A DNA stretch of 28,000 nucleotides from an uncultured bacterium (lineage in GTDB: Bacteria > CALINM01), in NCBI GenBank assembly GCA_938045315.1, contig CALINM010000054.1:1-28000 (forward strand), given 5' to 3'. The notes beneath the pieces are model-generated. The model saw nothing but the letters and a program-made list of their open reading frames with translations. It ran no database searches and was not told the DNA's origin. The position numbers and the translations under genes are program-made. Shown piece after piece: positions 15,699 through 27,697 of this stretch (positions are counted from its first letter, which is position 1; every line of letters begins with the position of its first letter).

Positions 15699-17666
15699 AT
15701 GAGATATGCAGAGGCAGGCTTTAATTTAGAAATTGATTTATCAACAGGTAATATTGAAAAAGTTGCAACGGATCCCAAAGATACGGAGGACTACTTAGGA
15801 GGATTAGGTACTAATGCAAAAATTATCTGGGATAGAATTGCTGGTGATACAGATCCATTTTCAGAAGATAATGTTTTAATATTTAGTTCAGGGCTTTTAT
15901 GTGGCACTCCAGCATATGGTGCTAATAGAACTATTATATCTTCCATTTCCCCTCAAACAAAACTCTTTGCCTTTTCTATGACGGGTGGGTTTTTTGCGCC
16001 TGAATTAAAGCAAGCAGGTTATGATAAAGTAATTTTGCGTGGGAAGTCACCTAACTGGATATATGTTTACATAAATAATGATAAAGTTGAATTAAGAGAT
16101 GCTACTCATTTGCTTGGTAAGAGCACTTATGAAACCTTGGAAGCTATAAGAGATGAGATAAACGATCCCCGTGCTCAGGGACTTGCCATTGGTCTTGCAG
16201 GAGAAAATAGGGTCTTCTTTGCATCAATCGAAACTCATAGGGGCAGTGCAAGTAGACTTGGTCTTGGTGCTGTGATGGGAGATAAAAAAGTTAAAGCAAT
16301 TGTTGTTCGAGGCACTAAAGATTTAAGTATTGCAAAGCCTATGGAATTCATGAATGAATGCAGTAAAGTTTTAGATTATATGATGTATAGACTTCAAAAT
16401 CCCATAAAAGGTGTTCCTGCTATACTTTCTTTGATTGGTTCTCCCCAGGAGATGTTACTACACGATGAAGAATGGCATACTAATAATTTTGCCTGGGGTA
16501 ATGCACGAGTTAGAAGAAAGAATTTCTGGAACAGTGAGATAGAAAAAGAATGGTCAGAAACATTAGAGAAAGCAAGGAAAAAGCTCATTAGCTGCTATAA
16601 CTGCCCTATTAGATGTGCTGGTATAATTCAGTTACCCGGCTTTCCTACATATGTTATGAAATGTTATTCTAAAATTACTTATACAATGGCTGCTATGGTA
16701 GATAGTCTTGAGTTTGGGCTTAAAATTGCAGCAAAGGCACAGCATTATGGTGTAGATGGATTTACCACTCCACAAGTTATGGCCTTTGCCATTGAGCTTT
16801 ATGAAAACGGTATACTAACAGATAAAGATTTAGAGGGGATGCCTAAAGAAAGTAAAGAAGAACAATTTTTCTGGTTACTTGATAGAATTGTAAGAAGGGA
16901 AGGTATAGGTGAGTATCTCGCCGATGGAGTTTACTGGGCAGCAAGAAGGATTGGTAAAGGTGCAGAACAGTTTGACAGGAATACAATAAAAAAACACGAG
17001 CAGATACCCATAAAACTTGGCATGCTTAATCCCATTTACTATATCATGTGGTCTACGGGTGAAAAGGTTAATATCACACAAATTGAAGGACAATTTCCAC
17101 AAGCACCGTTCCCATCCAGAGAGTTAAAAGAGGAGTTTATAAAGGATTGGATACAAATCCCCACAGGTAAGGAAGAGAAATTTAAAAGATTTATCATGGA
17201 GTGGGGTGAAGAGGGCAAAAATTTCCCCTTCTGGCCAGAGCCAGAACTAATAGCTGAATTAGTAGAATGGCAGGAGCTTATGCACTATGTTGATGATTCA
17301 TTGGGACTTTGTGCTGGACTTTCTTCCTTTCCCTTGAAACCACCGTATCATATTCATAATTTGCCAGTCTTTATTAAATATGCTACGGGCATTGATTATG
17401 ATGAAGAGAAGCTTTGGAATACTGCTAGTAGAATTAGAAATTTAGTCCGCGCTATAAATATAAAAAGAGGTTTAAAAAGAGAAGACGAAAAACCACCAGA
17501 GGATCATTGGAAAAAAAGATTCCCAGAATATGAGCAGAAATTGCTTGATGAATATTACAAATACAAGGGATGGGATAATAGAGGAATTCCGAAGAGAGAA
17601 ACTCTTGATAAGTTAGGGCTTGGTTATGTTGCTGAGGAGTTTGAGAAGATGGGAGTTTATGATTAG
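15699..17666 (+). CDS. bamB: BamB-like tungsten aldehyde:ferredoxin oxidoreductase-family enzyme
   Basis: The 655-residue protein belongs to the AOR family of tungsten-bispyranopterin enzymes. It is closest in layout and length to BamB, the catalytic subunit of class II benzoyl-CoA reductase. It has the N-terminal GGLGTNAKI and TGGFFAPELKQAGYDKVIL pterin-binding regions and the 4Fe-4S cysteines C299, C302, C306 and C538 (LGLC). It also has E251, H255, E257, H260 and C322, which from memory coincide in number with the active-site residues and tungsten ligand of Geobacter BamB. In BamB the enzyme reduces benzoyl-CoA to a cyclic dienoyl-CoA by using low-potential electrons without ATP. Related AORs of unknown substrate share the fold, so the aromatic substrate is an inference. 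It is first in a sigma-54-driven operon. Confidence 0.82.
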   Translation: MRYAEAGFNLEIDLSTGNIEKVATDPKDTEDYLGGLGTNAKIIWDRIAGDTDPFSEDNVLIFSSGLLCGTPAYGANRTIISSISPQTKLFAFSMTGGFFAPELKQAGYDKVILRGKSPNWIYVYINNDKVELRDATHLLGKSTYETLEAIRDEINDPRAQGLAIGLAGENRVFFASIETHRGSASRLGLGAVMGDKKVKAIVVRGTKDLSIAKPMEFMNECSKVLDYMMYRLQNPIKGVPAILSLIGSPQEMLLHDEEWHTNNFAWGNARVRRKNFWNSEIEKEWSETLEKARKKLISCYNCPIRCAGIIQLPGFPTYVMKCYSKITYTMAAMVDSLEFGLKIAAKAQHYGVDGFTTPQVMAFAIELYENGILTDKDLEGMPKESKEEQFFWLLDRIVRREGIGEYLADGVYWAARRIGKGAEQFDRNTIKKHEQIPIKLGMLNPIYYIMWSTGEKVNITQIEGQFPQAPFPSRELKEEFIKDWIQIPTGKEEKFKRFIMEWGEEGKNFPFWPEPELIAELVEWQELMHYVDDSLGLCAGLSSFPLKPPYHIHNLPVFIKYATGIDYDEEKLWNTASRIRNLVRAINIKRGLKREDEKPPEDHWKKRFPEYEQKLLDEYYKYKGWDNRGIPKRETLDKLGLGYVAEEFEKMGVYD

Positions 17667-17710: not shown

Positions 17711-18301
17711 ATGGAACTAACTTTAAAAGAGGAGTTAGGTGTGAGTAAAAAGAAAAAAGTAAAATTTATTAAAATTGATTTGGATAAGTGTCATGGTTGT
17801 CGTGCCTGTGAAGTTGCCTGTTCAGCTTTCCATGCAAAGCCAAAATACAGCACAATAAATCCAGCGCGTTCGAGAATTAGGGTATTTAGAGATGAACTGA
17901 GAAATGTCTTTGTCCCTGTATATGCAAGCTTTTATACAAAGGCAGAGTGCCCGGGAAGAAGGGTTTATATTGCTGAGCAAAAGGAACATAGCCCTGATAG
18001 AAAAGAGTATGTGGAGTGTAGTTTTTGTGGAGCAGCATGTCCTTCAAGGGATTTATTTTTTGAACCCGATTCTGGTCTTCCTGTAAAGTGTGATATGTGT
18101 GAAGATGATCCACCAATTGAGACTCCCTGGTGTGTCAAGGTATGTCCCGTTGGTGCACTTGTTGTTGAGGAAAGGGAAGTGGAAATTGCAGAAAGAGAGG
18201 AAGAAAAAGAAGATGAGCTGGAAATTGGTATGGAAGCATTAGCAGATAAATATGGCTGGGATAAAATAATTGATATGGTAGTGAAAAAAAATATCAAGTA
18301 G
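17711..18301 (+). CDS. bamC: BamC-like polyferredoxin electron-transfer subunit
   Basis: The 196-residue protein carries three cysteine groups for 4Fe-4S clusters: C27-x2-C30-x2-C33-x3-C37; C103, C106, C110 in CSFCGAACPSRD; and C127, C130, C141, C145 in the CDMC / WCVKVCPVGA region. C80 may complete the second group. The order is typical of DmsB/HybA-type and BamC proteins that dock to an AOR-family catalytic subunit. The tail (residues 155-196) is highly charged (EREEEKEDELE). No signal peptide is present, so it is cytoplasmic. It follows the AOR gene by 44 bp behind an AAGGG site. It should carry electrons between BamB and the HdrA-like subunit. Confidence 0.8.
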   Translation: MELTLKEELGVSKKKKVKFIKIDLDKCHGCRACEVACSAFHAKPKYSTINPARSRIRVFRDELRNVFVPVYASFYTKAECPGRRVYIAEQKEHSPDRKEYVECSFCGAACPSRDLFFEPDSGLPVKCDMCEDDPPIETPWCVKVCPVGALVVEEREVEIAEREEEKEDELEIGMEALADKYGWDKIIDMVVKKNIK

Positions 18302-18314
18302 TGCTTTATTGTTC

Positions 18315-20849
18315 ATGGAAAATACTGCAGTTTTAAAATTGAGAGATTTTTTTAAGAATCGAGATTATGGCGATGTTTTAATGGTTGGTGGAGGTATAAG
18401 CGGCATACAGGCTGCACTTAATCTTGCTAATTCAGGATTTAAAGTATACCTCTTAGATAAGGCACCTACAATTGGTGGTCATATGGCTATGCTCGACAAA
18501 ACATTTCCTACAAACGATTGCTCTATGTGTATAGAATCGCCAAAATTTGTTGAATGTTACAGGCATCCAAATATTGAACTTCTAACCTCTTCAGAAGTAG
18601 AAAAAGTAACCGGCTCAGCAGGTAATTTTACGGTAACGATAGTAAAAAAACCAAGATATGTTATCGAGTCTAAATGTACTGATTGCACATCCTGTGTAGA
18701 ACATTGTCCTGTAAAATATCCCGATCAATTCAACCAGAATATATCTAAAAACAAGGCAATACATATTTATTTTGCCCAGGCAGTGCCTCTGGTCACCTAC
18801 ATAGATCAGTCATGTCTCTACTTACAGGAAAAAAAGTGTGGTATATGTGAGAGTGTATGCAAAACAAGTGCAATAGATTTTACTCAGAAACCTGAATATA
18901 GAACGCTAAAGGTAGGAGTGATCATAATTTCACCGGGGTTTTCTGCTTTTGATGCTGCAATAATAGAGTTTGGATATGGTAGATATAAAGACATTGTGAC
19001 AGGCCCTGACTACGAGAGGCTTCTATGTGCCACGGGTCCCTTTGAAGGTGAAGTTTTAAGAATAAGCGATCACAAATACCCAGAAAAGATTGCTTGGATT
19101 CATTGTGTTGGTTCAAAAAGTGTGGTAAAAAATTCCAATACTTATTGCTCTTCAGTGTGTTGTACTTATACGCAAAAACAGATTATTCTCACAAAGGGCC
19201 ATGATGAAGATGCAGAATGTGTTGCATTTCATAATGACATAAGATCTTATGGTAAAGATTTTGAGAGATTTTTCAAGAGGGTTGCAATTCTTCCAGGGGT
19301 AAGATTTATTAGAAATTATGTTTCTGTTGTGGGTGAAAATCAGGAAAATAAAAATGTGATATTAAGATACTCTACTTTTGACAAGGGTGTTGTTCAGGAA
19401 GAGTTTGATATGGTAGTTTTATCAGTGGGATTGAATCCGCCTGCTGATAATGAAAAGATTAGGGATATATTTGGTATAAAACTAAACAATAAAGGCTTTT
19501 CCTCATCAAACTACTTCGATCCCGTTGAAACAAATGTGAAGGGTATATTTGTAAGTGTTGCCTTTCTTGGGCCTATGGATATCCCTGAAGCAGTTTTTAC
19601 AGCAAGTTCAGCTGTTTCAAAGTGTGGAGAAATTCTTAAAAATGAAAGATGGAAATTATCAAAGGAAAGGGAGTATCCATTCACCCTTGAAAATCTTGAT
19701 ATAAAAACTTTTCTGGATAATCTAATAAAAATGGTTTTTAAGCATCCATTAACGCATGTTTATATGGGTGGAAAAGTAGTAGAATCAACAGGTTATGTGG
19801 GTAACTTTTTAACCAAAATAGAAACTTCAAATAATAAAACTTTTGAAATTAAACACGGTGCAACTGTAATAGCGGTAGGAGCTAAAGAATATAAGCCAGA
19901 AGAATATTTATATGGTAAATCGAATCTTGTAAAGACCAATTTAGAATTAGAAAATATGATTGGAAGGAGAGAAAAAAGCCTTTTAGAAGCAGAAAGTGTA
20001 GGATTTATACAATGTGTGGGTTGTAGAAACGAAGAGAGAAGTTATTGTTCAAAAATTTGTTATACTAATAGCATTAAGCTTGCAATAAAACTAAAAGAGA
20101 TTGATCAAAGAAAGGATATTTATGTTTTTTTTAGAGATATGAGGACTTATGGTTTTAGAGAGGACTATTTCAGTAAAGCTTCAGAGCTTGGTGTTAAATT
20201 TATAAGATATGATGCAGATAACCCACCTATTGTTGAGGATACAGGTGACGATAAAACACTTAATATTAGAGCCTTTGACCATGTACTTAACAAAATGCTT
20301 GAAGTCTCAGTTAATTATTTATTCCTTGCCAGTGCTGTAATCCCAAACGAAGATGCTGCAACCGTAGCTAAGTACTTTAAGGTTAATCTTGGTACAGATG
20401 GATTCTTTCAAGAAGCTCATGTAAAATTAAGACCAGTGGATTTCGGTGCCGAAGGGGTTTATTTATGTGGTACAGCCCATTACCCAAAATTTATAAACGA
20501 GACTATAAGTCAGGCTTACGCAGCAGCAGGAAGAGTAGTAACACTCCTTTCCCATGACACTATTGTGGCTTCAGGTTCGGTATGTGTTGTGAATGAAAAA
20601 AGCTGTATTGGATGTGGTGCCTGCGTGGATGCTTGTACTTACGGCGCTATTGAGCTAAAAAAAACAAATTTTGGACACAAAGCAACTGTAAATCCCATAT
20701 TATTCAAAGGGGATGGACTATGTAATTCTAAATGTCTCACATATGCAATTTCACTAAAGCACTTTACTGAAGATCAGTTAATAAAGCAGATTTTGGCAAC
20801 AAAAGAAAAAGAGGCTGATGAAAAATTAATGCTCAATGGAGTAGCATGA
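18315..20849 (+). CDS. bamE: BamE-like HdrA flavoprotein with FeS domains
   Basis: ATG 18315 gives 844 residues; a TTG two codons upstream is possible, and neither start has a clear ribosome-binding site. The N-terminus binds FAD (VGGGISGIQAALNLA) and has the HdrA motif TFPTNDCSMCIESPK. A ferredoxin insert follows (KCTDCTSCVEHCP and KCGICESVCK), then two CVG-type stretches with IHCVGSKS and IQCVGCRNEERSYCSKIC. The C-terminal ferredoxin has a complete first motif (C764, C767, C770, C774). The second reads LFKGDGLCNSKC, with F797 and D800 where cysteines are expected and only C803 and C807 left. HdrA-like BamE is thought to split or confurcate electrons at its flavin. The ORF is intact and overlaps the next gene. 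Confidence 0.8.
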   Translation: MENTAVLKLRDFFKNRDYGDVLMVGGGISGIQAALNLANSGFKVYLLDKAPTIGGHMAMLDKTFPTNDCSMCIESPKFVECYRHPNIELLTSSEVEKVTGSAGNFTVTIVKKPRYVIESKCTDCTSCVEHCPVKYPDQFNQNISKNKAIHIYFAQAVPLVTYIDQSCLYLQEKKCGICESVCKTSAIDFTQKPEYRTLKVGVIIISPGFSAFDAAIIEFGYGRYKDIVTGPDYERLLCATGPFEGEVLRISDHKYPEKIAWIHCVGSKSVVKNSNTYCSSVCCTYTQKQIILTKGHDEDAECVAFHNDIRSYGKDFERFFKRVAILPGVRFIRNYVSVVGENQENKNVILRYSTFDKGVVQEEFDMVVLSVGLNPPADNEKIRDIFGIKLNNKGFSSSNYFDPVETNVKGIFVSVAFLGPMDIPEAVFTASSAVSKCGEILKNERWKLSKEREYPFTLENLDIKTFLDNLIKMVFKHPLTHVYMGGKVVESTGYVGNFLTKIETSNNKTFEIKHGATVIAVGAKEYKPEEYLYGKSNLVKTNLELENMIGRREKSLLEAESVGFIQCVGCRNEERSYCSKICYTNSIKLAIKLKEIDQRKDIYVFFRDMRTYGFREDYFSKASELGVKFIRYDADNPPIVEDTGDDKTLNIRAFDHVLNKMLEVSVNYLFLASAVIPNEDAATVAKYFKVNLGTDGFFQEAHVKLRPVDFGAEGVYLCGTAHYPKFINETISQAYAAAGRVVTLLSHDTIVASGSVCVVNEKSCIGCGACVDACTYGAIELKKTNFGHKATVNPILFKGDGLCNSKCLTYAISLKHFTEDQLIKQILATKEKEADEKLMLNGVA

Positions 20850-21692
20850 TGAAAACTACGAAATATAAGCCTAAAATGATTGGGTTTGTTTGTAACTGGT
20901 GTTGTTATGGAGGAGCAGATTTAGCAGATGTATCTCATTTCCAGTATCCTCCATATATTTAGATTGGTAAGGGTTATGTGTTCAGGTAGAATAGATTTTT
21001 CACATATTTTTACTTCTTTTATGACAGGTTATGGTGGTGTTTTCGTTGGTGGCTGCCATCTTGGAGACTGTCACTACATTACTAACGGTAACTATGATGC
21101 TATTAGTCTAGTTCAGCTTGCAAAGAAGATATTAGAATACATTGGGATCAATCCCATCAGGCTTAGGATAGAGTGGGTATCAGTATGAGAAGGAATCAGA
21201 TTTGCAAATATTATGAATGAATTTAGTGATCAGATTTTGCAACCTGGCCCTTTAGGGTTCAAAGAAAACTTAGATTTAGTAACAGTGAAGAGTAAGATAA
21301 AAGAGGTTATGAGGTTAGTGTCATACATAAAAATTGCAAAAAGAGACAAACTAAAAACAAGATTTTTCGAGACAAAAATGTACGATGATCTTTTTACCAC
21401 AGAGGAAGTCAAAGATTTAATTGAAAACGTCCCCAATTACTGGATAGATCCTGCAAAATGTACTGCTTGCACAATATGTGCTAAGAGATCTCCTGTAGAT
21501 GCAATAGAAGGTGATAAGGGAATAATTCATGTTATAGATCAGCAAAAATGTATCAAATGTGGCACCTGTTATGATGCTTGTCCAGATAAATTTAAAGCCC
21601 TTCAAAGGCTTGTTAATATGCAGATTTCAGTACCACTGCCATTTGATGCAAGGCAGAAAATAAGAAAAGTTGAAAATGTAAAAGGGATTTAG
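20849..21692 (+). pseudogene. bamF: BamF-like MvhD-ferredoxin fusion gene, interrupted by frameshift and in-frame TGA
   Basis: Three pieces in two frames make one MvhD-type protein of about 280 residues. From ATG 20849, 37 codons encode the 2Fe-2S start (FVCNWCCYGGADLA) and stop at TAG 20960-20962. Dropping one T at 20958-20960 restores RLVRVMCSGR and GGCHLGDCHYI, up to RIEWVSV. A TGA (21186-21188, codon 113) follows, and the same frame continues with EGIRFANIMNEFSDQI into a two-cluster ferredoxin domain ending at 21692. Its first motif, C204-x2-C207-x2-C210-x3-S214-P, has serine for the fourth ligand cysteine; the second motif is complete. MvhD passes electrons to HdrA. Decay is the simplest reading. 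Sequencing error, programmed frameshift, or selenocysteine at TGA are alternatives. Confidence 0.8.
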
Positions 21693-21722: not shown

Positions 21723-22880
21723 ATGGAAATATTCGAGCCTTTTAAAGAAGCGATAGAAGAGATAAATCAAGCAGGTGGTGAAAGAACAAAACTATGCTTC
21801 CAGTGTGGTAAGTGTGATAGTGTTTGTCCCTGGAATAGAGTTAGAAATTTTAGTATGAGAAGACTTATAAGAGAAGCTAATTTTGGCTTATCGGAGATAG
21901 AAAAAGACGATATTTGGCTTTGTACAACTTGTGGAAAATGCCCCCAAAGATGTCCAAGAGATGTTAGACAAATAGAAGATACTGTTGCTGTGAGAAGAAT
22001 TGCTAATGTTTATAATGTTTTTTCAGATACTGCTAAACCCATTAAAACTGTATCCTCCGGGCTAAAAACCGAAGGTAATCCCTTTGGCGAAGAACGCTCA
22101 AAAAGATATGCATGGGCAGAGGGACTTAATTTAAAAAAATTTGAAGAGGGTATGGAATATCTTTTCTTTACTGACTGCTATCTTTGCTATGATCCAAGGA
22201 TGAAAAAAGTAGCAAAAATGACTGTAAACATTTTAAATTCCTCAGGCATTGAATATGGAATTTTAGGGGAAATGGAAAATTGCTGTGGAGAAAGTATAAG
22301 AAAAACAGGCAATGAAGAGTTATTCAAAAAGTTAGCAAAGGAAAACATAAAAAACTTTATAGATAGGGGAGTGCAGAAAATCATTGTTAGTTCACCTCAT
22401 TGTCTCTATACATTTAAAAATGAGTATTCGCAATTTAAAGTAAATTTTGAAGTTATACATATTGTTGAACTTTTATATAAGCTTATACTGGAAGGGAAGC
22501 TTAAGTTTAATGGTAGTTTAAAAAAGAAAGTTGTTTATCATGACCCCTGTTATTTAGGAAGACACAGCGGGATTTATGATGAACCAAGAGAGTTATTAAA
22601 ATCTATACCAGGATTAACACTTCTCGAGATGGAAGAAGAAAGAGAGGAATCACTATGTTGCGGTATGGGAGGTGGTAGGGTGTGGATGGAAACACACAAA
22701 AACGAGAGATTCTCAAATATTAGAATTGAACAGGCAATAAATGCAGGAGCTGAAATACTTGTTACAGCATGTCCCTATTGCATCACAAACTTTGAAGATA
22801 CAAGAGTAGTATTAGGTTTGGAAGATAAAATTGAGATTAGAGATATAACAGAAATTATTGCTGAGGTTGCTTTTGTTTAA
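21723..22880 (+). CDS. bamD: BamD-like HdrD/HdrBC-type FeS protein
   Basis: The 385-residue protein has an N-terminal HdrC-like ferredoxin with two clusters (C25, C28, C31, C35 and C67, C70, C73, C77). Two CCG domains of the HdrB type follow, with NCCGESIRKTG and SLCCGMGGGR plus their partner cysteines (DCYLC, SPHC, DPCYLG, ACPYC). CCG domains bind non-cubane or 4Fe-4S clusters and in Hdr proteins reduce disulfides. In the Bam complex BamD is an electron-transfer subunit next to BamE. All ligand cysteines look intact, in contrast to the gene before it. AAGGAG precedes the ATG, 30 bp after the ferredoxin stop. It is the last gene of the cluster. BamGHI (NuoEFG-like) do not follow. Confidence 0.82.
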   Translation: MEIFEPFKEAIEEINQAGGERTKLCFQCGKCDSVCPWNRVRNFSMRRLIREANFGLSEIEKDDIWLCTTCGKCPQRCPRDVRQIEDTVAVRRIANVYNVFSDTAKPIKTVSSGLKTEGNPFGEERSKRYAWAEGLNLKKFEEGMEYLFFTDCYLCYDPRMKKVAKMTVNILNSSGIEYGILGEMENCCGESIRKTGNEELFKKLAKENIKNFIDRGVQKIIVSSPHCLYTFKNEYSQFKVNFEVIHIVELLYKLILEGKLKFNGSLKKKVVYHDPCYLGRHSGIYDEPRELLKSIPGLTLLEMEEEREESLCCGMGGGRVWMETHKNERFSNIRIEQAINAGAEILVTACPYCITNFEDTRVVLGLEDKIEIRDITEIIAEVAFV

Positions 22881-23697: not shown

Positions 23698-25005
23698 ATG
23701 CAGACAAAGGAAATGATTGAGAGGATTAAAAATAAAAAAGCATCAATTGGAGTTATAGGCCTTGGTTATGTAGGGCTACCGTTAGTCATAGAGTTTGCAA
23801 AAAAAGGTTTTACAGTTTTTGGTTTTGATATAGATGACAAAAAGATAGAAATGCTTAAATCCTGGAAAAGTTACATAAAGCATATTGATTTAAAAGATCT
23901 TAAGGGTAGAAATTTTACTCCCACAAGCGACTTTACAAAGTTAAAAAGTGTAGATTGCATAATCATTTGTGTTCCCACACCATTGAACAAATATCGAGAA
24001 CCAGATATGACTTATGTTTTCAATACAGCAAAAACCATATCCCAGAACATGAGAAGGGAACAACTAATAGTACTTGAGTCAACTACCTATCCAGGGACAA
24101 CCGATGAAGATGTAAGAAGGATATTAGAAGAAAGTGGGTTAAAGGCGGGTAAAGATTTTTATTTAGCCTTTTCTCCTGAGCGGGAAGATCCTAATAACCA
24201 AAACTTTAAAACCAATCAAATACCAAAAGTAGTAGGTGGTTACGATAAAGAGAGTTTAGAAGTAGCAAAGACACTTTATGATCAAATTGTGGCAAAAACG
24301 GTGCCCGTATCATCTACAAAAGTTGCAGAAGCAACAAAGCTTTTAGAAAATATTTATCGAGCTGTGAACATAGCTTTGGTAAATGAATTAAAGATACTTT
24401 TTGATAGAATGGGTATAGACATCTGGGAGGTAATAGATGCTGCCAAGACAAAGCCCTTTGGGTTTCAGGCCTTTTATCCGGGACCTGGCATAGGTGGGCA
24501 TTGCATACCCGTTGACCCCTTTTATCTTACCTGGAAGGCAAGGGAATATGATTTTTCCACGCGCTTCATCGAGCTTGCTGGAGAGATAAATATATCAATG
24601 CCCTACTTTGTAGTTCAAAAAACAATAGAAGCCCTTAACGAACGGGGTAAAAGTATCAAAGGTGCGAAAATTCTCATACTTGGTATGGCATACAAAAAAG
24701 ATGTGGATGATATGAGAGAATCGCCATCCCTTGTAATATACGAGCTTTTTGAGAAAAAGGGAGCGGTTGTGGATTATAACGATCCTTTCTTTCCAGAGAT
24801 ACCAAAATTAAGAAAGTATGAGATACATAAAAAATCTATTCCCCTCACAAAAGCCAATCTAAAGAAATATGACTGTGTGGTCATAGCCACAGATCATAGC
24901 GAATATGATGGAGACTTTATAGCAAGAAACTCAAACCTAATTGTAGATACAAGGAATCTCATCAAGGATTCAGAGAAGTATAAGGGCAAAATAGTTAAGG
25001 CTTAA
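23698..25005 (+). CDS. wbpA: UDP-N-acetylglucosamine 6-dehydrogenase (WbpA type)
   Basis: The 435-residue nucleotide-sugar dehydrogenase has GVIGLGYVGLPLVIEFAKKG (18-37), CVPTPLNKYREPD, the substrate region FSPEREDP (159-166), the catalytic C269 in GPGIGGHCIPVDP and the C-terminal YKKDVDDMRESPS fold. The GHCIPVDP form and SPEREDPGN-like loop mark the UDP-N-acetylhexosamine branch (WbpA, WecC, TviB) rather than Ugd. It oxidises C6 to yield UDP-GlcNAcA. The following genes, a 2-epimerase and a WbpB-WbpD fusion, point to the UDP-ManNAc3NAcA-type pathway, so WbpA is the better name. An AGAGAGG site precedes the ATG. Confidence 0.85.
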   Translation: MQTKEMIERIKNKKASIGVIGLGYVGLPLVIEFAKKGFTVFGFDIDDKKIEMLKSWKSYIKHIDLKDLKGRNFTPTSDFTKLKSVDCIIICVPTPLNKYREPDMTYVFNTAKTISQNMRREQLIVLESTTYPGTTDEDVRRILEESGLKAGKDFYLAFSPEREDPNNQNFKTNQIPKVVGGYDKESLEVAKTLYDQIVAKTVPVSSTKVAEATKLLENIYRAVNIALVNELKILFDRMGIDIWEVIDAAKTKPFGFQAFYPGPGIGGHCIPVDPFYLTWKAREYDFSTRFIELAGEINISMPYFVVQKTIEALNERGKSIKGAKILILGMAYKKDVDDMRESPSLVIYELFEKKGAVVDYNDPFFPEIPKLRKYEIHKKSIPLTKANLKKYDCVVIATDHSEYDGDFIARNSNLIVDTRNLIKDSEKYKGKIVKA

Positions 25006-25008
25006 TTT

Positions 25009-26121
25009 ATGAAAATTATACAAATAGTGGGAGCAAGGCCACAATTTATAAAGTATTTTCCTGTCCATAAGGCTTTATTAAAATACGAAAACGTTCGAAA
25101 TATTCTTATTCATACGGGGCAACATTACGATGTAAACATGTCAGATATATTCTTTAAAGAGCTTGGCATACCAGAACCACACTATCATTTAGGTGTTGGC
25201 TCTGGACCACAAGGTGCTCAAACAGCTCGAATGATAGAAAAAATAGAAGAAGTCATTTTAAAAGAAAAACCAGACTGTATTGTCATCTATGGAGACACAA
25301 ACTCAACCTTAGCTGGAGCTTTAGCAGCTTCAAAACTTCACTTACCTGTTTTTCATATAGAGGCTGGACTGAGAAGCTACAACAAATTCATGCCAGAAGA
25401 AATAAATAGAGTTCTCTCAGATCATGTATCAACGCTACTTTTTTGTCCTACAAAAACAGCTATTAAAAATTTAGAAAAAGAGGGGTTTAAAAATAAATTA
25501 AATGATGGAGAACTAATACCTATACCCTTCAATCAGAAAATAGTTTCTAATATCTCTGAACCTTTGATAGTAAATGCAGGCGATGTGATGTATGATATAA
25601 TAAAAGAAATTGGACCAAAAGCTGAAAAATCAGAAATTCTTGAAAGACTTGGGCTTAATGGCAAGAATTATGCCACAATGACACTACATAGAGCTGAAAA
25701 TGTTGATAATGCAGAAAGACTTCAGAAACTATTAAACTTTGTAAATGATATAGATTTAGAGAAGGTGATATTTCCAGTCCATCCCAGGACAAAAAGACTC
25801 CTTTCACAGGTAAATTTTTCAGAAAAGATAAAAATAATTGATCCCCTGGGCTACATAGACATGGTAAAGCTTACAAAAGAGAGTTCGTTAGTTTTAACTG
25901 ATTCAGGGGGGCTTCAGAAAGAAGCCTTCTGGCTTGGCGTGCCCTGTATAACACTAAGAGAGGAGACAGAGTGGATAGAAACCATTGAGCTGGGCTGGAA
26001 CATACTGTATAAAAATTTTAAAAGTATTAATGACTTTACAAAAAAAACGGCATACCCCTTTGGCGATGGCAGAGCAGGGGAGAGAATAGTAGAAGTAATT
26101 GTAAATATGGGGATTAATTAA
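25009..26121 (+). CDS. wbpI: UDP-N-acetylglucosamine 2-epimerase family, WbpI type
   Basis: The 370-residue protein of the WecB family has [12 protein letters not shown] (8-19), [59 protein letters not shown] and [20 protein letters not shown]. These contain the family's catalytic Asp, Glu and His residues. The sequence [19 protein letters not shown] and the pathway context fit WbpI/WlbD, which epimerises UDP-GlcNAc3NAcA at C2 to the manno form. Plain WecB, acting on UDP-GlcNAc, is the alternative. It starts three bases after wbpA and is followed 13 bp later by the fusion gene, so it lies mid-operon. Confidence 0.83.
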
Positions 26122-26134
26122 GGAGAAAAGTGAA

Positions 26135-27697
26135 ATGGTCAAACAACTAACTGAACCGTTTATAGCCCATATAGGACTTGGCTATTGGGGGAAAAATATA
26201 TTGAGAAACCTATATGAGTTAGGCGTTCTTCATACAGCATGCGATGTAAGTGAAAAACTAATAGAAGAAAGGAAAAAAGAGTATCCAGATATAAAATTTA
26301 CAACAAAATATGATGAGCTTTTAAATAACGATATAATAAAAGCTATAGTCATATCAACACCTGCAGCAACCCATTATGAGCTTGCAAAAGAAGCATTACT
26401 TGCAGGAAAAGATGTATTTGTAGAAAAGCCACTATCATTAAGAGTTGATGAGGCTCAAGAGCTAATAAAAATTGCAGAGAGGGAAAAAAGAATACTGATG
26501 GTGGGTCATATTCTACACTACCATCCCGCTGTAGTAAAAATGAAAGAGATGATCAAATCAGGCAAACTTGGGAAAATCCAGTATATATACTCAAACAGGT
26601 TAAACATTGGCAAAATTAGAACAGAAGAAAATGTAATCTGGAGTTTAGCTCCCCATGATGTATCACTCATTCTTGATATAGTAGGTGAAGATGCAAAAGA
26701 TATTAAGGCCTTTGGTGCTTCATATCTTACCTCAAACATAGATGACATAGCGACCATACAAATAACATTCAACAACAATATAAAAGCCCATATATTTGTT
26801 AGTTGGTTAAATCCTTTTAAGGAACAAAAATTTGTTGTAGTGGGATCAGAGGGCATGATAGTTTTTGATGATGTTTCAAAGGAGAAGCTTTTTTTCTACC
26901 CCCACAAAATTGAGTGGCAGAATGGTAGAATTCCGGTAGCAATAAAGGTAAAGGAAGAAATAATACCCATAGAGTCAGGAGAACCATTAAAGTTAGAGCT
27001 AATACACTTTATAAAATGTGTGGCAAAAAGGGATAAGCCACTAACAGATGGAAGAGAGGGATTAAAAGTTATAGAAGTCTTAACAAAAACTAATAATATA
27101 AATAACGCAATCCCAAACACAACCAAAAGGCTAAACTACTTTGTTCACGAGTCATCTTACATAGATGAGGGAGTTGAAATAGGGGAAGGTACAAAAATAT
27201 GGCATTTCAGTCATATATTAAAGGGGACTAAAATCGGTAAAAACTGTATAATAGGGCAGAATGTCGTAATTGGACCAGATGTTGTGGTGGGTAACAAATG
27301 TAAAATACAAAATAATGTATCCCTGTACAAAGGAGTTATCCTGGAAGACGAGGTTTTTTGTGGTCCTTCTTGCGTGTTCACTAATGTTTACAATCCAAGG
27401 GCATTCATAGAGAGGAAACACGAATTTAAACAAACATTAGTGAAAAGGGGAGCTACAATAGGAGCAAATGCAACGATAGTGTGTGGAGTAACAATAGGGG
27501 AGTATGCACTCATTGCAGCTGGGGCTGTGGTTAAAAAAGACGTTCCGCCCCATGCAATAGTTGCAGGGGTGCCTGCAAAACAGATAGGGTGGGCATGTAA
27601 GTGCGGCGTTACACTAAAGTTCAAGAATAATAAAGCTAAATGCGAATATTGTGGCAATGAGTACGAAGATCAAAAAGGGACAATTATTTGTGATTAG
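26135..27697 (+). CDS. WbpB-WbpD fusion: sugar-nucleotide 3-dehydrogenase plus N-acetyltransferase
   Basis: The 520 residues hold two enzymes. Residues ~8-325 are a Gfo/Idh/MocA oxidoreductase ([38 protein letters not shown] with the EKP motif, [10 protein letters not shown]), as in WbpB/WlbA, which oxidises C3 of UDP-GlcNAcA. Residues ~335-485 are a left-handed beta-helix acetyltransferase of hexapeptide repeats ([38 protein letters not shown]), as in WbpD/WlbB, which acetylates the 3-amino group. A CxC...CxxC zinc-ribbon tail (C488, C490, C503, C506) ends the protein, as in many WbpD homologues. The two steps are separated by an aminotransferase (WbpE) not present here. AAGGAG precedes the ATG. 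Confidence 0.9.

Follow-up and report, generated by a model that had tools for sequence, protein, structure and literature searches.

The question posed by the locus analysed here is whether an interrupted bacterial reading frame represents a decayed gene or one that is expressed by recoding. The gene concerned, a BamF-like gene, lies within a stretch of 28,000 nucleotides from an uncultured bacterium (contig CALINM010000054.1; here referred to as the window) and contains both a frameshift and an in-frame TGA. MvhD-type (FrhD) proteins and HdrA are known selenoprotein families (PMC1794560), and for this reason the selenocysteine (Sec) reading of the TGA was tested first. An earlier sequence-only reading of the window had proposed a recent loss of function in the link between the Hdr-like subunits and their electron donor or acceptor. 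The portions of the literature consulted on BamF, on MvhD/HdrA selenoproteins and on pseudogenes provided background and contained no earlier account of the present case.

The genes for aldehyde:ferredoxin oxidoreductase (AOR), ferredoxin, HdrD, HdrA and MvhD-type proteins are found in one cluster, so that a BamBCDEF-type gene content is present (Table 1). The benzoate cluster of Geobacter metallireducens has the BamB-BamF genes and encodes the same five kinds of subunit, namely aldehyde ferredoxin oxidoreductase, 4Fe-4S, Cys-rich 4Fe-4S, 4Fe-4S/FAD and hydrogenase delta (MvhD-like) proteins (PMC1924859). The window differs from that cluster in its gene order, AOR-Fd-HdrA-BamF-HdrD, and in the damage to BamF and HdrA. 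In the same-genus genome G001 no close match to the AOR, ferredoxin, HdrD or BamF of the window cluster was found, and in the same-family genome G002 the HdrD-like gene alone was close to it, on a contig that starts inside this gene (G002:C150:1-1121, L135). The window HdrD-like gene shows 85% identity to this counterpart, with a dN of 0.10 and a saturated dS (NG86), and it is therefore under purifying selection. Further downstream, at 23736-27637, the window carries a nucleotide-sugar gene cluster, part of which has a second copy at G000:C86:609-5118 with ~70% DNA identity.

Table 1. Positions in the window of the cluster genes and of the lesions in the HdrA-like and BamF-like genes
Feature	Position	Strand	Remarks
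BamB-like aldehyde:ferredoxin oxidoreductase subunit	15699..17666	+	AFOR_N + AFOR_C; full length, open; 11/162 invariant columns changed
BamC-like ferredoxin subunit, intact	17711..18301	+	Fer4 domains; 0/37 invariant columns changed
HdrA-like (BamE-like) gene	18309..20849	+	HdrA2 family match; open 846 codons, internally deleted; 51/191 invariant columns lost, rank 1/52
HdrA-like deletion junction, residues 457/458	19677..19682	+	~192 codons missing, including FAD motif of second module
HdrA-like invariant Cys to Tyr, residue 585	20061..20063	+	TAT
HdrA-like invariant Cys to Phe, residue 799, C-terminal ferredoxin	20703..20705	+	TTC
BamF-like 5' piece	20849..20962	+	37 codons with CNWCCYGGAD (Cys form), then TAG
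Frameshift site, BamF-like gene	20958..20960	+	TTT, one base more than homologous reading
BamF-like remainder, +1 frame	20958..21692	+	MvhD domain + ferredoxin domain
In-frame TGA, BamF-like gene	21186..21188	+	context WVSV*EG; Gly site in relatives; no SECIS-like hairpin
TCT (Ser) in BamF-like gene	21489..21491	+	replaces invariant ferredoxin Cys, fourth of first ferredoxin motif
HdrD-like (BamD-like) subunit, intact	21723..22880	+	two CCG domains

Both interruptions described in the sequence-only reading are present in the raw sequence. Owing to the TTT of the frameshift site, the BamF-like frame that opens at ATG 20849 runs for 37 residues into the TAG at 20960-20962; the homologous reading is picked up in the next frame, encounters the TGA (21186-21188) and terminates with the TAG at 21690-21692. 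When joined, the pieces yield an MvhD-ferredoxin protein that is full length at 280 residues. Its downstream part scores 102.6 bits against the FlpD/MvhD family and also contains ferredoxin domains, and the joined reading as well as P0002 match the FlpD and Fer4 models, with the FlpD domain followed by 4Fe-4S domains. As to the third lesion, the TCT codon is likewise present and the cysteine that it replaces is invariant in the ferredoxin-fused homologues, but its earlier description as a ligand of the first cluster needs amending: in the usual wiring of a 2[4Fe-4S] ferredoxin, the first motif contributes its fourth Cys to the second cluster. At three other positions that are otherwise invariant, Gly is replaced by Asp (20927-20929), Arg by His (20936-20938) and Pro by Ser (21321-21323). 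The gene as it stands has neither a single open reading frame, being interrupted by the frameshift TAG and the TGA, nor a full set of ferredoxin cysteines.

Relatives of BamF were collected in one scan of the genome collection, which returned 80 loci, and ~95 stretches were aligned. At the frameshift site, the frame is collinear in these ~95 homologous stretches (FQYPPYIRLIRVMC). In the TGA column the nearest relatives have Gly (WVSAGEG) and almost all of the other stretches have Gly, Ala or Ser, with no Cys or Sec anywhere; the Gly codons of the relatives at this column include GGA, which is one base off TGA. No BamF lesion of the window is common to any of the stretches, and chance is excluded for the lesions on the basis of this comparison. 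Alignment with full-length homologues had been put forward in the sequence-only reading as a check, and it bore that reading out, the lesions being unique to the window. The Cys-form MvhD-ferredoxin proteins of Pelotomaculum (L034-L036) share with the window BamF the CNWCCYGGAD motif, the fused ferredoxin, 57-59% identity and the same tree clade; however, their frames are open, with Gly in place of the TGA and no ferredoxin cysteine missing, whereas the window gene is broken.

Expression by recoding, with the TGA read as selenocysteine and the frame restored by a programmed frameshift, has some initial appeal in this genome, as it decodes TGA as selenocysteine (tRNA-Sec, SelB and SelA were all found) and contains real Sec proteins of the BamF family. 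The real Sec codon of that family, however, lies in an N-terminal CxxU motif, at which the window gene has Cys as in Pelotomaculum, and the column of the window TGA, being without Cys or Sec in the aligned stretches, does not have the pattern of a selenoprotein site. Folding of the 45 bases 3' of the TGA revealed no SECIS-like hairpin directly after it, the fold energy being -0.3 kcal/mol versus -7.5 to -12.1 kcal/mol at seven real Sec TGAs. Selenocysteine at this position was rejected on these three grounds, and together they make Sec recoding very unlikely. A programmed frameshift at 20958-20960 was also rejected since it is common to no homologue, and even a recoded product would still be missing the ferredoxin Cys; the probability of expression through both events is, in our estimate, close to negligible. 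Loss of function, as the sequence-only reading had held, is therefore the best reading of the BamF-like gene. As a separate observation on the family, CTGGAGTTTCCAGACT follows the BamF Sec codon without variation in 7/7 genomes examined (L038, L040, L042, L048, L050, L133 and L134), and this downstream sequence is probably the SECIS hairpin.

The frames flanking the BamF-like gene had been described as intact, which is literally true but misleading with regard to the HdrA-like gene upstream. Apart from the loss of two cysteines, this gene has undergone an in-frame deletion of ~576 nt, with the break at 19679/19680, of a block that is kept in 56/56 compared homologues; the size was estimated at ~192 codons, or 178 to 197 by BLAST arithmetic over these 56 homologues. 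The deleted block corresponds in sequence to residues 2-173 of the HdrA of 5ODC (HdrABC-MvhAGD) and holds the GxGxxG of the second module. A two-module HdrA would have both FAD-binding motifs and the ferredoxin cysteines, and in the window protein the second FAD motif and two Cys are absent. Sequence matches to 5ODC extend over the HdrA modules and MvhD; the differences are that the window HdrA is without the block and that in 5ODC MvhD stands alone as a protein, with Ser (WISASEG) in the position of the TGA. For HdrABC-MvhAGD, the proposed electron route leads from the MvhD [2Fe-2S] cluster to the flavin of HdrA (PMC6019823). By analogy, both sides of the MvhD-HdrA electron contact would be damaged in the window.

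The lost invariant positions were scored by a leave-one-out test against the relatives. The window ranked first for HdrA, in which 43 of the losses are due to the deletion, and for BamF (4/42, TGA excluded), and second for AOR and for HdrD (6/105). The second rank of AOR and HdrD implies that part of the divergence reflects lineage distance; of the six HdrD changes, four also occur in G002. Outside the deletion the HdrA rate, 8/148, is no higher than that of AOR and HdrD, and the decay signal of HdrA therefore consists of the deletion and the two cysteines. That the lesions never occur together in one cell, and are products of misassembly or of a strain mixture, is a reading to which the fragmentation of the draft genome (244 contigs) lends some weight. 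We nevertheless consider it unlikely, as the lesions differ in kind (a single-base insertion, a stop, missense changes of ligands and a 576-nt in-frame deletion) and cluster in a pair of neighbouring genes for the same complex, with open frames in the window's other predicted genes.

A changed function is another conceivable explanation, in which the cell would still make the internally deleted HdrA together with at least one BamF fragment. It would be compatible with an HdrA frame that remains open for 846 codons, which, along with the restriction of the data to one genome, also limits the evidence for a pseudogene, and with an ATG-started ORF of 159 codons at 21213-21692 that spans the ferredoxin part of the BamF-like gene. 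Against it, the deletion takes out the FAD motif of the second HdrA module, invariant cysteines are gone from both HdrA and BamF, and no purine-rich ribosome-binding motif was seen by inspection at the usual distance upstream of ATG 21213. Continued use of these fragments thus appears highly improbable.

The same genome contains a second HdrA-BamF pair. Its BamF-like gene, on contig C122, is open with the TGA in CYWUGYGAAD, and G002 also has one. Contigs C65 and C122 overlap at their ends by no more than 16 bases; their joined reading gives an open HdrA stretch of 1037 residues that contains a single Sec codon, and the Sec-form BamF comes next on C122. This pair is homologous to the window pair over both proteins (the BamF proteins being 49% identical) and retains the residues lost there, but differs in being open, full length and equipped with Sec in both proteins. 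The damaged pair therefore represents the Cys form, whereas the intact one, on C65/C122, is of the Sec form. In FastTree analyses, the window BamF was placed in the Cys-form clade (support 0.95) and the window HdrA with the Sec-form HdrA of its own family (support 0.998). Given these differing placements, the two window genes may differ in their histories, a suggestion that is tentative in view of the long branches. Upstream of the Sec-form HdrA, on the minus strand, is a 782-codon ORF (G000:C65:2637-4982, L132) with two nitrite/sulfite reductase halves and a C-terminal TusA domain; it adjoins the Sec-form pair and may encode a partner for it.

Taken together, we put the probability at roughly 0.87 that the BamF-like gene at 20849-21692 is a recent pseudogene in a BamBCDEF-like cluster, with the adjacent HdrA-like gene damaged too. 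Its disabling lesions are unique in comparison with the relatives, and BamF and HdrA are the genes for which the window ranks first in lost invariant positions. The term recent, which was also used in the sequence-only reading, is supported in a relative sense, with genus-level divergence as the yardstick, because most invariant residues are preserved in what is left of the two genes. Since translation stops after 37 codons, neither an MvhD [2Fe-2S] protein nor a ferredoxin arm would be expected from the window BamF, and a product that read past the two stops would still be short of one cluster ligand. The proposed loss of the Hdr-like electron link agrees with the damage to BamF and the adjacent HdrA-like gene; however, since the genome has a further, undamaged HdrA-BamF pair, the link may have been replaced and not lost.

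The Cys-form pair was most likely made redundant by the Sec-form pair, whereupon selection on it would have relaxed and decay set in; the case looks like an unremarkable shedding of a component no longer needed. The Sec-form pair could possibly act in trans for the AOR, ferredoxin and HdrD subunits that remain. The fuller proposal, that the organism is losing the Cys-form HdrA-BamF as a unit while AOR, ferredoxin and HdrD are retained and draw on the selenoprotein pair in trans, is a tentative one that we regard as possible but doubtful. The BamF case tells a pseudogene from a selenoprotein in a setting where an in-frame TGA often is selenocysteine, and a naive Sec annotation would be wrong here. 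With a Cys-form electron-transfer pair decaying beside still-open partners and a Sec-form pair kept, both replacement and selenium dependence become testable and, if the proposal is true, replacement of subunits by a Sec isoform would make the enzyme selenium-dependent.
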